Source: Bacillota bacterium | GTDB taxonomy: Bacteria > Bacillota > Sulfobacillia > UBA995 > UBA9673 | Length of the DNA stretch: 43,536 nt | Assembly: GCA_003599345.1 (NCBI GenBank) | Contig: QZJP01000020.1 | Coordinates: 1 to 43,536 of the forward strand | Direction: 5' to 3' | Shown: in pieces, positions 7,901 through 39,663 of the stretch | Numbering within the stretch: position 1 is the stretch's first letter | Layout of the letters: each line of letters starts with the position of its first letter | Notes under the pieces: model-generated | What the model saw: only the letters and a program-made list of their open reading frames with translations | Told to the model about the DNA's origin: nothing | Database searches by the model: none | Made by a program: the position numbers and the translations under genes

Positions 7901-8333
7901 CAAGGCGGGCACCCCGCTTCCCGGCTGGGAGCCCATCGCCGCGCGCCTGGGCCTCGTCGAAGTGACGGACCCCGACACGGGCGAGCGCGAGGTGCGGATG
8001 CCCGCGCGGGCGCGCTACCTCGCGGACCAACTCGTCCTCCTCAAGGACGTGGGGCGGCTCGTCGGCGTGCTCGGCGGCCAGGAACCGCTGGAGCGGCTGG
8101 GTTCGCCCTTCTTCGGCGTCGGCCTCTACGGGATGAGCGGGGAGGACGTGGCGCGGCAGAAGGCGTACCGCGAGAACCGGCGGCTGCGGGAACTGCTCGG
8201 CGCGCTGGGGAGCCGAGGGGTCGAAGTGCCGGCGGCGGAGGAGGTACGAGGCGCAGGCGGGGCACAAAGACGCGGGCTGTTCGGAGGAGGCGGCGGGAGG
8301 AAGCGCGGGCTGTTCGGAGGGGGCGGCGGGTAG
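4971..8333 (+). CDS. Large internal virion / polyvalent-type protein
   Basis: Encodes 1120 aa from GTG 4971 (GTGATG overlap with the previous stop; ATG 4974 is equally possible). It is mostly helical and rich in Arg, Ala and Glu. Around residue 835-860 it has a conserved-looking segment, FPFFTWSRKNIPLQFSML, resembling the aromatic signature of large polyvalent-protein-associated domains (LPD38-like) in phage ejection proteins. The extreme C-terminus carries two copies of RGLFGGGGG. No lytic transglycosylase or protease motif was recognised. It is the longest gene in the window and takes the place of the T7 gp16-type internal core protein. The domain match is from memory of the motif and is unverified. 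Confidence 0.55.
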   Translation: MMARGLFRSTAGGAGARRGIFQSPTATTQDPLSRTLAANETLRARLAAAGQPAESLGQKTLRGLSWLLYQISRPYYAVTGGLREALAGGGLGAVGREAWEGLTLKEKDTVSDILSDVGWEPETKAGKFAKGAVSFIGDVLLDPATYVTLGAAGVTRAGLKGALKGTMKAAGRELGEEALERTARELAEEAAKRGLKGRVSRKAASEMAENTAKRLGDATLRGPLEEALLRAKPARRLQVGTGIPFSGGRKVQAGVSLARPGEALERALGRVAETRAGGAAARLGRAVTRPLGQAFEVGYGYAQRLRDVGRRFRDTTRAGARQVFEDTRNLAREFEPVRRAVGGVEWRAAEKAAAKRDIAMLHKAGAKVGADHARLHDLAQELFGVDSLTKLSGEEMKAFKKLLKHPDFGKKAAKELLEYTPPAAKKLSPSYAIMRAVDSGRIDELPEALRPFAAEAKETFDTLGATEKAVGALDDVRANYYPHILRGYSREVADQLHNAMAKWKQGAEAAGGKAAQEAEKAAFIAEEMAKGVAEAAALAKWQKRLAKLPTKTRFAKKRTLETFEDLERFVEWARQFPGLEKLAIEDDFVKVMGIRKLAHARVMANHDMLASLRAVGDDLVADAKTAPAHFVDSPVPQLKGVKVAPEVARFLNDFKEPFTNIESLRGILGIFDKGTNFWKGLATAARPGFHIRNAISNVFNNWLAGVRDISFYRDAYRLQRAAAKGDDALRALRVRGKNGLELWREVVSSGVTGHGWMGADIGETLEDVLRGARQPSRGGVLAEALRHPVLTGRRVGTAVEDNARVAHYLAKRAEGLDIEEAVLSVKGALFDYDELTPFERNVLKRVFPFFTWSRKNIPLQFSMLLQQPGVYAKLGHLKDAAETLSTGPDEADLPEWMRDAYVVRLPFQIGDKQLYANVDLPLNDLSLPSGREVLSMLNPLLKLPVEWFTNTQLFSGTPLEDVSGEYVKAPGYLWALYKAGTPLPGWEPIAARLGLVEVTDPDTGEREVRMPARARYLADQLVLLKDVGRLVGVLGGQEPLERLGSPFFGVGLYGMSGEDVARQKAYRENRRLRELLGALGSRGVEVPAAEEVRGAGGAQRRGLFGGGGGRKRGLFGGGGG

Positions 8334-8369: not shown

Positions 8370-8616
8370 CCGACCGGAGGTTGTGAGTGTTGCCGCGATT
8401 GAGCTAGGATGTAGGCCGCGATTGTGGCGTGAATGTCGGCTTCGGAGATAGGTGCCTGTCCCTAGCCAATCCTAGCACACCCCGCCGCCGCTGTCAACAC
8501 CCACACTGCACATTCCGCTGTCCCGCCGCAGCAATCCCTGCCGGCGTTTCCTGATTGCTATCGCACCGCACAATCTCTCACTGCTTTGAAGGAACCCGCG
8601 AAGGAGAACAAGAACA
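8370..8616. other. Noncoding interval with long-range inverted repeat
   Basis: No credible gene was found on either strand. GCTAGGAT (8403-8410) pairs with ATCCTAGC (8469-8476) and could enclose a structured RNA of about 74 nt. GCCGCGATTG occurs twice, near 8391 and 8415. No convincing sigma-70 promoter was recognised. The interval separates the ejection genes from the lysis genes and may hold a late promoter used by the phage's own sigma-like factor. Confidence 0.4.
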
Positions 8617-13361: not shown

Positions 13362-13441
13362 CCGCTCCCGATGAACCGCCGCCTGCCCACGGCGGGGAGG
13401 GGGCGGGAGATTGTTCGTCTTAGGGAGGGGTAGGAATGGAA
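13362..13441 (+). repeat. 80-bp direct repeat, copy 1 (leader and ribosome site)
   Basis: It is identical to 14184-14263 at 79 of 80 positions (difference at 13429/14251). It holds a 6-bp hairpin CCGCCG/CGGCGG with an 8-nt loop (13376-13395), a G-rich stretch, the ribosome site and the first two codons of the gene at 13436. It looks like a mobile or duplicated 5' leader that sets expression of what follows. Confidence 0.9.
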
Positions 13442-14183: not shown

Positions 14184-14263
14184 CCGCTCCCGATGAACCG
14201 CCGCCTGCCCACGGCGGGGAGGGGGCGGGAGATTGTTCGTCTTAGGGAGGAGTAGGAATGGAA
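14184..14263 (+). repeat. 80-bp direct repeat, copy 2 (leader and ribosome site)
   Basis: Second copy of the element at 13362-13441. The start codon in this copy opens only a 15-codon ORF (14258-14305). That ORF ends in an overlap with the GTG start of the ASCH gene, so the repeat here acts as a translated leader. Confidence 0.9.
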
Positions 14264-14639: not shown

Positions 14640-15203
14640 ATGAAGAAAATCGACACCATGTTTGACCGGGGCGACCAATTCAAGGTCACACCAAAGGTCC
14701 GCAAGGACTGCGAATGGGTTCTCGCTGGAGAAGGGGTGGCCACGGAGAAACTGGACGGGACCAATGTATTGGTCGCTGAAGGTCCAGACGGCCAAGCCCT
14801 ATGGCCTTGGAAGCGGCGCAATCCAACGGAGGAGGAAAAGGCTGCTGGAGTCGAGCCTACCAATATCCCGTGCGTCCTTGGAGACCCCTCGGACAAGTGG
14901 ATTTGGGATGCCTTCAACAACACGCCTGACCTGAGTCCTGGGTACTACGAGGCCGTTGGCCCCAAGATACAAGGCAATCCTCTTGGTTTAGATCATCATG
15001 TTCTTGTGCGGCTCGACGAGATGCCCGTCTACCCCGATTGCCCCAGAACTTTCGATGGACTTCGGGACTATTTAAGGAACCTCGAAAGCCTGTACTCCCC
15101 CGGCCATCTTGTCGAGGGCATTGTGTTCCATCATCCTGATGGGCGCATGGCCAAGATCAAGCGCAAGGACTTCCGATATTCCTTGGCTCCCAAGGCCGAT
15201 TAG
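14640..15203 (+). CDS. RNA ligase (Rnl2-like nucleotidyltransferase)
   Basis: Encodes 187 aa from ATG 14640. EKLDGTN (36-42) is motif I, with Lys37 as the expected adenylated residue. YYEAVG (102-107) is in the motif III region, VEGIVF (158-163) is motif IV and AKIKRKDF (171-178) is motif V. This order and spacing fit the small RNA ligase family (PF09414-like). Such enzymes seal nicked RNA; T4 ligases repair tRNAs cut by host anticodon nucleases. No polynucleotide kinase is visible. The presence of tRNA-like RNAs in this genome makes an RNA-repair or RNA-processing role worth testing. Confidence 0.85.
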   Translation: MKKIDTMFDRGDQFKVTPKVRKDCEWVLAGEGVATEKLDGTNVLVAEGPDGQALWPWKRRNPTEEEKAAGVEPTNIPCVLGDPSDKWIWDAFNNTPDLSPGYYEAVGPKIQGNPLGLDHHVLVRLDEMPVYPDCPRTFDGLRDYLRNLESLYSPGHLVEGIVFHHPDGRMAKIKRKDFRYSLAPKAD

Positions 15204-36437: not shown

Positions 36438-36583
36438 GTGGCTGGCGAGTTGCCACTGGCACCCGGGACACCGGGGGTTAGCTCAACGGTAGAGCGGCCA
36501 CAGGGGTGGCGAGACCGGGGTTCGACTCCACGGCCCCCGACCACTTAAACGAGGCGTCCACGCTACGCCTACTCGCCAGCCAC
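36438..36583 (+). ncRNA. TGGCTGGCG-bounded RNA module 3 with tRNA-like core
   Basis: GTGGCTGGCGAGT (36438-36450) and ACTCGCCAGCCAC (36571-36583) form a perfect 13-bp terminal helix. The core is a tRNA-like body at 36472-36543. Extra hairpins are TGCC/GGCA (36451-36461) and AGGCGT/ACGCCT (36552-36570). It lies alone between the portal and a small gene, 16 kb from modules 0-2, yet shares their terminal helix. No ORF uses the region. Confidence 0.65.
36472..36543 (+). ncRNA. tRNA-like element with truncated anticodon arm and encoded CCA
   Basis: Seven acceptor pairs (36472-36478 with 36533-36539, last one G-U), D stem GCTC/GAGC with loop AACGGTA, T arm CGGGG/CCACG (one mismatch) around TTCGACT, then discriminator A and CCA. 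The anticodon arm is only GCCAC-AGGG-GTGGC, a 5-bp stem with a 4-nt loop and no U33, followed by a normal 5-nt variable loop GAGAC. It should be recognised by RNase P and CCA-dependent factors but cannot decode. Confidence 0.7.
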
Positions 36584-37883: not shown

Positions 37884-37908
37884 CACCGCCTTCGGGCGGT
37901 GTTTTTGT
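37884..37908 (+). terminator. Intrinsic terminator between scaffold and capsid genes
   Basis: CACCGCC-TTCG-GGCGGTG is a 7-bp stem with a UUCG tetraloop followed by TTTTTG. It may only partly stop transcription, since the capsid gene follows at once and no promoter is obvious between them. Confidence 0.8.
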
Positions 37909-37952
37909 TTGCCCCCGCTGGCTCCCGCGCCACGCGGAAGGAGAGAGACAGT

Positions 37953-38423
37953 TTGGCAGTTCCTACCTACTCGAAGGTACTCAACACCATCAACACCATC
38001 GGCGCCGAATACGTCGCGTCGAGCATCCTCGCGGACAACGTTTTCAACGCGACGCCAGCGCTGCAGAAGTTCCGGTCCAAGCAGAAGACCTTCGCGGGCG
38101 GCCTGCTCATCGAGGAGCCGCTGGAGTACGCCATCAACCCGAACCGCGGGTCCTACTCCGGTTCGGACACCTTCTCGGCGGCCGTGCACGAATTCGCCAC
38201 CAAGGCGCAGTTCGGCGTCAAGGACACCTACGTCTCCGTCACTCTTCTGGGTGACGACATCGATAAGTGCAAAGGCCCCGACGCCCTGGTGGACCTCGTC
38301 CGTGCCGCCCTGCGGAACGCCGAGAAGACCATGACGTACGAGCTCACGACCCAGCTCTTCACCGCCGGGACCGGTAACGACTCGAAGGACATCACGGGTC
38401 TCAAGGCCGTGTGCGACGACGGT
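37953..38423 (+). CDS. Major capsid protein, exon 1
   Basis: Encodes residues 1-157 from TTG 37953, with GAAGGAGAG upstream. The sequence has the HK97-like capsid pattern (YSKVLNTINTIGAEYVASSILADNVFNATPALQKF, then GKGLLIEEPLEY-type strand and VTLLGDDIDKCKGPDALVDLV). It stops at the group I intron after codon GGT. Unspliced, it would end nine residues later at 38442-38444. Together with exon 2 it gives a 318-aa capsid protein. Confidence 0.85.
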
Positions 38424-39177
38424 ATCCTATGTGCCGTCGCTTAAATCTGGCTATATGCTGGGAACTCCGAGTATCCCGAGGTACTTGCCGCAAGGCGAGT
38501 GACAATCCTCCGGGTGCGGACGACCAGCAGGGAAGGCTCTAAGTGAACTGCGAGACATGTGGTAAGAAGATAAGACACCGTGAACCCAACAAGGTGCGAC
38601 GAAACAAACGACACTTCTGTAACCGTGCCTGCTACGAGGCGTGGTGGAAGGTCAATATCGGACGCGCTGGAGACACGCATCCCACAGCCAAGCCCAAGTA
38701 CACGGTTATCTGCAAGACGTGTGGGATGGAGTTCAGGGTGTCCCCTTATCGAAAGGACACGGCGAAGTTCTGCTCTCACTCCTGCCGAGCGAAGCACTAT
38801 TTCACTGGCTCCCGTAACCCGCTCTGGAATGGCGGGGTGACGGACGAACACTCCAGGGTTCGCAGACTGGACGCGTATCGAGAGTGGAGGGCAGCCGTCT
38901 ATCGCCGGGACAAGTGGACGTGCCGGACGTGCGGGTACAAAGGGCGGGCTATCGTGGCCCATCACATCAAGAGGTTTGCCGACCATCCCGCACTGAGGTT
39001 CGCCCTCTCCAATGGTATCACGCTGTGCCGCACATGTCACGCGCACATAGAGAACCCTCAGAGACTAATACGCCAGACACCTGAAAAGGTGAAGATAGAG
39101 TCCGAACCTCATGGCGACATGGGGAGGGCGGCAGAAATGACCGCCCCGCTCGGCTAGGTCGAGTAGTAACAAAATTG
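38424..39177 (+). other. Group I intron in the major capsid gene
   Basis: The exon end CGACGGT pairs with GCCGTCG (38434-38440) to form P1 with a U-G pair at the 5' splice site. The intron ends in G at 39177. The R and S core segments are visible: TCAGAGACTA near 39059 and AAGATAGAGTCC near 39091, which form P7. Both exons stay in frame (471 and 486 nt). The intron is 754 nt and carries an HNH gene. Confidence 0.85.
38543..39157 (+). CDS. HNH homing endonuclease
   Basis: Encodes 204 aa from GTG 38543. Two Cys-rich zinc modules (CETCGKKI...FCNRACYEAWW and CKTCGMEFRV...FCSHSCRAKH) precede SRNPLWNGG. The HNH core is CRTCGYKGRAIVAHHIKRFADHPALRFALSNGITLCRTCH. It would cut intronless capsid genes to spread the intron. 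Its last 35 codons lie over the intron's P7 region, so one sequence serves both as RNA core and as protein. Confidence 0.88.
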   Translation: MNCETCGKKIRHREPNKVRRNKRHFCNRACYEAWWKVNIGRAGDTHPTAKPKYTVICKTCGMEFRVSPYRKDTAKFCSHSCRAKHYFTGSRNPLWNGGVTDEHSRVRRLDAYREWRAAVYRRDKWTCRTCGYKGRAIVAHHIKRFADHPALRFALSNGITLCRTCHAHIENPQRLIRQTPEKVKIESEPHGDMGRAAEMTAPLG

Positions 39178-39663
39178 ACCAACGTGGCGACGTACGGCGG
39201 CATCTCGCGCTCGGCGGAGACCTGGTGGAAGGCGAAGTACACCGCGCTTTCCGACTACATCAGTCTCGAAGCCATCCAGGCGATGGTCGGGGACCTGACC
39301 GACGGCAACATCCGGCCCCAGCTCATCATCACGACCCAGGATGTCTGGGATGACATCTACACGATACTGACGCCCTACCAGCGCGACTACTCCGACAAGG
39401 AGACCGCGAAGTTCGGCTATCAGAAGATCGTCATCAGCGGCATCCCAATCACCGTGGACGCGCAGTGCCCGTCGGGCGAGATGTACTTCCTCAACTTCGA
39501 CTACCTCAAGTGGCGCCCGCTCGCGAAGTACGCCAATTTCCACTTCACGGGCTGGAAAGACCCCGTGCTCCAGGACATGATGACGGCCCAGCTCATCTGG
39601 AAGGGCAACCTCACCTGCTCCAACTGCCGCTACCAGGGCCGCATCGTTTCCATCTCAACGTAA
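39178..39663 (+). CDS. Major capsid protein, exon 2
   Basis: Encodes the remaining 161 residues (TNVATYGGISRSAETWWKA... to ...GRIVSIST). The beta-strand-rich end and DIYTILTPYQRDY, YFLNFDYLKWRP are typical of capsid C-terminal domains. No ribosome site precedes it, so it is made only after splicing. ACCAAC at the exon start may pair in P10 with the intron guide. Confidence 0.85.
   Translation, partial: TNVATYGGISRSAETWWKAKYTALSDYISLEAIQAMVGDLTDGNIRPQLIITTQDVWDDIYTILTPYQRDYSDKETAKFGYQKIVISGIPITVDAQCPSGEMYFLNFDYLKWRPLAKYANFHFTGWKDPVLQDMMTAQLIWKGNLTCSNCRYQGRIVSIST

Follow-up and report, generated by a model that had tools for sequence, protein, structure and literature searches.

A compact RLIG1-family RNA ligase in a tailed phage that also carries anticodon-less tRNA-like RNAs

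In vitro, RLIG1 and several of its bacterial and viral homologs join the halves of tRNAs that have been cleaved in their anticodon loop (PMC11494293), and the constructs in that work include one listed as 'C. phage'. Human RLIG1 is also reported to have a part in the integrity and protection of 28S rRNA (PMC13244148). Phage homologs of the RLIG1 type are already annotated as RNA ligases, namely phrog_14301, gp74 of Mycobacterium phage Collard and a protein of Cellulophaga phage phi10:1. The 'C. phage' construct may be, as our guess, the phi10:1 protein. The tRNA repair carried out by T4 Rnl1/Pnk against PrrC likewise involves a 5'-3' ligase able to reseal tRNA cut at the anticodon loop. On the RNA side, resistance to anticodon nucleases has been predicted for phage tRNAs with anticodon-loop changes (van den Berg 2023, PMC10264068).

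Here, we describe a phage-encoded RNA ligase by its sequence, motifs, family, fold and occurrence, together with the anatomy of RNA cassettes in the same genome, two of which enclose tRNA-like RNAs without a 7-nt anticodon loop. The whole stretch of DNA analysed, 43,536 nt in length, is referred to as the window.

A minimal ligase in a tailed-phage genome

In a binned genome of 101 contigs and 2.3 Mb, the window corresponds to contig C7. Throughout its length it is identical to a part of the viral sequence IMGVR_UViG_3300007354_000003, which measures 44,414 nt and has a terminal repeat of 99 nt. PHROGs profiles matched a terminase, portal, major head protein, Erf-type annealing protein and replication initiator, as well as a methyltransferase, SSB and endolysin-like peptidases; no integrase was found among the ORFs scanned. 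Judged by its sequence, the window is a nearly complete tailed-phage genome of approximately 44.3 kb. The gene for the major head protein is split into 37899-38444 (phrog_9953 positions 6-156) and 39175-39663 (positions 158-328). Between these halves lie an ORF for an HNH endonuclease (38543-39157) and a group I intron core that scored below threshold (38891-39124, 21.3 bits). A group I intron carrying a homing endonuclease probably interrupts the gene (37899-39663).

The ligase features are as follows:
14640 to 15203, plus strand: RLIG1-family minimal RNA ligase of 187 amino acids (ORF, profiles, alignment and predicted fold)
14748 to 14759, plus strand: motif I, KLDG, with K37 as the predicted adenylated lysine (K37 and G40 invariant and D39 nearly so in 32 relatives)
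15114 to 15161, plus strand: motifs IV (E159-G-I-V162) and V (K172-I-K174), from the alignment of 32 relatives

The ligase ORF begins with ATG and is preceded by GGAGGAGGG, a strong ribosome-binding site, and residues 1-180 are matched by the PHROGs family phrog_14301 'RNA ligase' with an E-value of 7.8e-34. An 80-nt direct repeat (13362-13441 and 14184-14263, 99% identical) ends in a ribosome-binding site and ATGGAA, and its copy at 14184-14263 runs into a short reading frame that lies upstream of the ligase gene.

The protein had been described from the sequence alone as a clear Rnl2-like ligase with motifs I, III, IV and V. The motifs stood, since motifs I (K37-L-D39-G40), III (around E104), IV and V are invariant or nearly so in the alignment of 32 relatives, in which the invariant residues include K37, G40, R59, E104, E159, G160, V162 and K172. 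The Rnl2 label was given up on the basis of profile and fold. The Rnl2-type Pfam model (PF09414, RNA_ligase) stayed below its cut-off of 27 with 15.3 bits, and the RLIG1 model matched better: the protein itself scored 23.4 bits (3.2e-5) with PF17720, just below the cut-off of 25, and 29 of the 32 aligned sequences from viral contigs matched this model, the best with 6.6e-18. Because 29 of the 32 relatives match PF17720 and because the profile of the ligase family finds the structure of Yasminevirus RLIG1 (9c6l, E 4e-22), we regard the family as settled. The RLIG1 fold and active-site residues (KxDG, the motif III glutamate, EGxV and KxK) are all present.

The AlphaFold2 model (pLDDT 93.2) agrees with this assignment. 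Its best Foldseek match in the PDB was again Yasminevirus RLIG1 (E 1.1e-8, TMq 0.71); then came a Naegleria ligase and T4 Rnl1, and none of the 50 matches listed was named Rnl2; the best match among viral models was the Cellulophaga phage phi10:1 protein. T4 Rnl2 shares the superfamily and the KxDG motif with the window-phage ligase, but the window-phage protein stops at residue 187, right after motif V, leaving no room for the C-terminal domain. The T4 Rnl1/Pnk system differs in that its ligase belongs to a different family and in that the window phage has no Pnk partner among the ORFs scanned. The phage protein shares catalytic motifs, fold and profile with the RLIG1/C12orf29 family and is shorter than the Yasminevirus chain (187 versus 277 amino acids). 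The window phage and G042, which has the closest known ligase, form a ligase branch with its own segment, WPWKRRNPTEEEK, whereas most relatives have a KRRE-type sequence there. By its sequence and structural model, 14640-15203 is a real, compact RNA ligase of the same family as human RLIG1 (PF17720/DUF5565), and adds a member to this known family.

Anticodon-less tRNA-like RNAs in closed cassettes

The RNA elements of the window are:
19922 to 19987, plus strand: hairpin A (TCGTCGATGGCG/CGCCATCGACGA), an element that G042 and G046 also have, upstream of their cassette B
19989 to 20050, plus strand: B0, a truncated copy of the 5' end of cassette B, seen as a 26-nt direct repeat, 96% identical, with 20456-20481
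20457 to 20628, plus strand: cassette B1, with the same closing stem (TGGCTGGCGGGG/CCCCGCCAGCCA) and a non-tRNA interior, with relatives in G042, G045 and G046
20665 to 20799, plus strand: cassette around the tRNA-like RNA 20677-20766, with an 11-bp closing stem (TGGCTGGCGGC/GCCGCCAGCCA)
20677 to 20766, plus strand: tRNA-like RNA with a 26-nt insert replacing the anticodon loop (Rfam tRNA 34.2 bits; host-tRNA model)
36438 to 36583, plus strand: cassette around the tRNA-like RNA 36472-36543, with a 13-bp closing stem (GTGGCTGGCGAGT/ACTCGCCAGCCAC)
36472 to 36543, plus strand: tRNA-like RNA with a Pro-type acceptor (C1-G72, A73, encoded CCA) and a 4-nt anticodon loop, AGGG (ARAGORN, covariance model)

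The RNA at 36472-36543 was reported by ARAGORN as 'tRNA-?(Pro)(gg)', and a covariance model derived from 18 host tRNAs gave it 54.2 bits; tRNAs with ordinary anticodon arms scored 40-80 bits in the same search. In 36472-36543, the acceptor stem has 7 pairs, the D stem 4 and the T stem 4 of 5, and ACCA is encoded, so that the three arms and the NCCA end are those of a functional tRNA, and its acceptor (C1-G72, A73) is of the tRNA-Pro type, like that of the host tRNA-Pro. The 7-nt anticodon loop with U33 expected of a functional tRNA is absent. Its anticodon arm consists of a 5-bp stem with the loop AGGG or, alternatively, of a 4-bp stem with the 6-nt loop CAGGGG. The isolated 72-nt RNA folds near a cloverleaf, and its minimum-energy structure has the 4-nt loop; for the full-length cassette, energy alone favours a non-cloverleaf fold (-77.0 kcal/mol) over the closed cloverleaf (-62.0 kcal/mol). 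The second RNA, 20677-20766, is above the Rfam gathering threshold and scored 28.5 bits with the host-tRNA model over 20677-20769. In the model alignment, 26 nt separate the strands of its anticodon stem, and it lacks a 7-nt loop in a 5-bp stem. The earlier description of two tRNA-like RNAs altered exactly at the anticodon therefore held and is refined here to a 4-nt loop in one and a 26-nt insert in the other; both RNAs are real and unusual. The phage tRNAs of PMC10264068 have the anticodon-loop alteration in common with them, but keep a decoding anticodon with point changes, whereas the window RNAs have no 7-nt loop and lie inside a closed cassette.

The closing stem TGGCTGGCG...CGCCAGCCA is common to 20457-20628, 20665-20799 and 36438-36583, with inner pairs that differ and still match. 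Perfect inverted repeats of this size are by themselves unremarkable in the GC-rich window (mean of 3.4 per shuffle); it is the common stem sequence that is remarkable. Among shuffled windows, ARAGORN reported any tRNA in 10 of 200, and a complete cloverleaf descriptor, which detects 36472 and misses 20677, was matched in 6 of 200 and enclosed by an inverted repeat of at least 10 in 0 of 200. The cassettes matched no known Rfam RNA besides tRNA, and Rfam gave no tmRNA match in the window up to an E-value of 1 and only sub-threshold ones in G042. Cassettes as an attachment site were dropped because the scanned ORFs contain no integrase.

A zinc-ribbon-like ORF (20079-20447) lies between the two copies of a 26-nt stretch from the 5' end of cassette B (19989-20014 and 20456-20481), as if this ORF had been inserted into a cassette, duplicating its 5' part.

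Occurrence of ligases, cassettes and anticodon-altered RNAs

Relatives of the ligase occur in at least 283 IMG/VR stretches. Further relatives (up to 49% identity), some of them annotated as DUF5565, are located on plasmids of Streptomyces, Vibrio and Deinococcus, including NZ_CP108270.1 and NZ_CP092196.1. The cassette family is far rarer. Stem-pattern scans of IMG/VR returned 76, 87 and 109 hits, and among those inspected, four contigs looked like members of the family and the others were chance-like: the window phage, G042 (92.9 kb), G045 (39.6 kb) and G046 (61.1 kb). Two of the four also carry the ligase (window phage and G042); none was detected in G045 and G046, contigs that may be fragments. 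The window phage was the only one in which the two tRNA-bearing cassettes were observed, and the cultured ligase phage Collard has one canonical tRNA-Trp and no mimic. The expectation that ligase and cassettes co-occur across phages thus came out mostly negative.

G042 encodes the closest known ligase (75% amino acid identity), with cassettes approximately 0.75 kb upstream of it. The ligase and 53 nt of the module (94% identity) are the most similar stretches between G042 and the window phage, and other proteins reach at most 42%. Hairpin A lies directly upstream of the cassettes in G042 and G046, where it (7966-8102 in G042; L206 in G046) has a well-conserved interior of approximately 100 nt and no Rfam match. 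On the minus strand of G042 (L087), 1849-1988 holds a tRNA-like RNA ending in CCACCA with sub-threshold matches to tmRNA (23.3 bits) and permuted tmRNA (25.3 bits), which is possibly a phage two-piece tmRNA; because of these weak matches, 1916-1988 was left out of the count as a third mimic. L209 was rejected as a cassette member, having a long stem of its own and none of the other cassette features. In cellular genomes, the cassette stem gave two exact 20-mer matches, in Acidovorax and Rhizobium.

We ran the host-tRNA model over entire contigs from 50 ligase phages and from 100 control phages, and classed the anticodon arms on the model alignments. Anticodon-altered tRNA-like RNAs were present in 5-6 of the 50 ligase contigs (G060, G070, G085, G091, G094 and perhaps G064) and in 2 of the 100 controls (G141 and G160), giving Fisher p values of 0.04 or 0.017, and of 0.10 or 0.05 when taken per base. 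The definition was fixed post hoc, and the controls were chance pattern matches, some of them selected because they fitted a tRNA-like pattern. Large tRNA arrays were classified in part, isolated tRNAs differ from arrays, and the controls are unmatched for host and tRNA-array content, so that we treat this excess as a weak lead and not as a result. The combination of a 5-bp stem and a 4-nt loop was found, leaving aside the window phage, in 2 of 50 ligase contigs and in none of 100 controls (p 0.11); these are L366 (= G070) at 17000-17072, with TATG, and L434 (= G060) at 1501-1567, with GCGG, both like 36472-36543. L366 has a second anticodon-altered tRNA-like RNA at 8434-8524. A 148-nt tRNA-like RNA in the ligase phage L409 (7836-7983) has perfect acceptor and D arms, with approximately 86 nt replacing the anticodon arm. 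Counting tRNA-like genes of any kind, 28 of 50 ligase and 25 of 100 control contigs were positive (odds ratio 3.0, p 0.004, length-corrected), which fits a tie between the ligase and tRNA biology in general, subject to the same caveats on the controls.

Possible roles of the ligase and the tRNA-like RNAs

We consider it moderately probable that the protein is a stand-alone minimal RLIG1-family ligase that seals 5'-phosphate/3'-OH breaks, most likely in tRNA, and that the cassettes are a separate matter. K37 would be charged with AMP in an ATP-dependent step, the AMP would be passed to a 5'-phosphate, and this end would then be joined to a 3'-OH. Because no end-healing kinase or phosphatase was recognised in the ORFs tested, the ligase most likely seals 5'-phosphate/3'-OH breaks, acting by itself on breaks that would already bear these ends. 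This search, by PHROGs and Pfam, likewise found no Pnk among the ORFs scanned; a healing enzyme could be encoded in a further small ORF or in the approximately 0.8 kb of the genome beyond the window, or be supplied by the host. Repair of the PrrC/Pnk type was set aside, as no Pnk was found among the scanned ORFs and AAA_13 (PrrC/RloC-type ATPase) was below the cut-off in the binned genome. PIN-domain (VapC-type) tRNases are a candidate source of the breaks; tRNA is the likeliest substrate, and its resealing would protect translation during infection. The binned genome contains three PIN-domain matches, one of them on a stand-alone open frame of 152 amino acids; this link holds only if the phage was binned with its real host. 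The anticodon-less RNAs would belong to an independently moving family of RNA cassettes that the ligase does not need. We infer the substrate, the end chemistry and the counter-defence role in the window phage; tRNA ligation by the family is taken from the literature. The earlier suggestion that the ligase repairs tRNA is plausible from the in vitro activity of the family (PMC11494293), and the role in the window phage is a prediction.

tRNA need not be the main substrate, because another paper ties human RLIG1 to rRNA integrity (PMC13244148). The ligase might instead repair other RNAs (rRNA, mRNA or phage transcripts) in general stress, as the reported protection of 28S rRNA and the wide spread of the family across phages and plasmids of many bacteria would allow; the joining of tRNA halves by homologs in vitro and the enrichment of tRNA-like genes in ligase-phage contigs make this unlikely in our view. 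A tentative possibility, to which we give rather more credit, concerns the RNAs only: they might be decaying phage tRNA genes unconnected to the ligase, in which case 36472-36543 would once have been a tRNA-Pro and would since have lost part of its loop. C1-G72, A73, the GG in the loop and the ARAGORN call Pro(gg) suit this origin, and odd tRNAs occur occasionally in control phages as well. However, the acceptor, D and T arms show hardly any defects, the alteration hits the same site in two separate elements, and each of these lies within the shared closing stem, with inner pairs that vary yet match (GC/GC, AGT/ACT, GGG/CCC); such covariation across cassettes suggests a maintained RNA structure.

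The sequence-only reading had joined ligase and mimics in one counter-defence strategy, in which the ligase repairs host tRNAs and the uncuttable mimics occupy the nuclease or its sensor. The alteration of both mimics at the anticodon arm with the remainder largely intact, the proximity of ligase and cassettes in G042 within its most similar stretches, the survey excess and the 5-bp/4-nt arms of two further ligase phages (L366 and G060) keep this idea alive, but cassettes in four contigs, two of them without a ligase, and nearly all of the 283 ligase stretches without cassettes leave it mostly unsupported by co-occurrence. As the excess is moreover post hoc, with p 0.11 for strict 4-nt loops and 0.05-0.10 per base for the broader count, and the controls are unmatched for host or tRNA-array content, we hold the joint strategy to be quite improbable. 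A joint ligase-RNA mechanism is possible, and the phage comparison lends it weak support at most; that RLIG1-ligase phages use cassette-borne anticodon-less mimics as uncuttable nuclease decoys while the ligase reseals tRNAs is slightly less probable again. Least probable of all, and very unlikely, is the proposal that the ligase is needed to mature the mimics by rejoining after an endonuclease cut, for example by excising the hairpin of 20677-20766 or circularising across the closing stem. If the inner hairpin of 20677-20766 (19 nt, CCCGGCCTAGCTAGCCGGG) were excised, the remaining loop would be 7 nt long (GAGTGAA); the closing stems bring the cassette ends together, and the ligase is near the cassettes in G042. 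That loop lacks U33, however, 36472-36543 has no insert for removal, G045 and G046 keep cassettes although a ligase was not found there, no cutting enzyme was identified, and we saw no sign of such maturation.

The ligase extends the RLIG1 family in phages, whose members, encoded in at least 283 IMG/VR stretches, are candidates for action against tRNA-cutting defences. The anticodon-less cassettes stand out as the more unusual of the two discoveries. If they proved to be nuclease decoys, they would represent a second RNA-based phage answer to tRNA-cleaving immunity, beside nuclease-resistant tRNAs.
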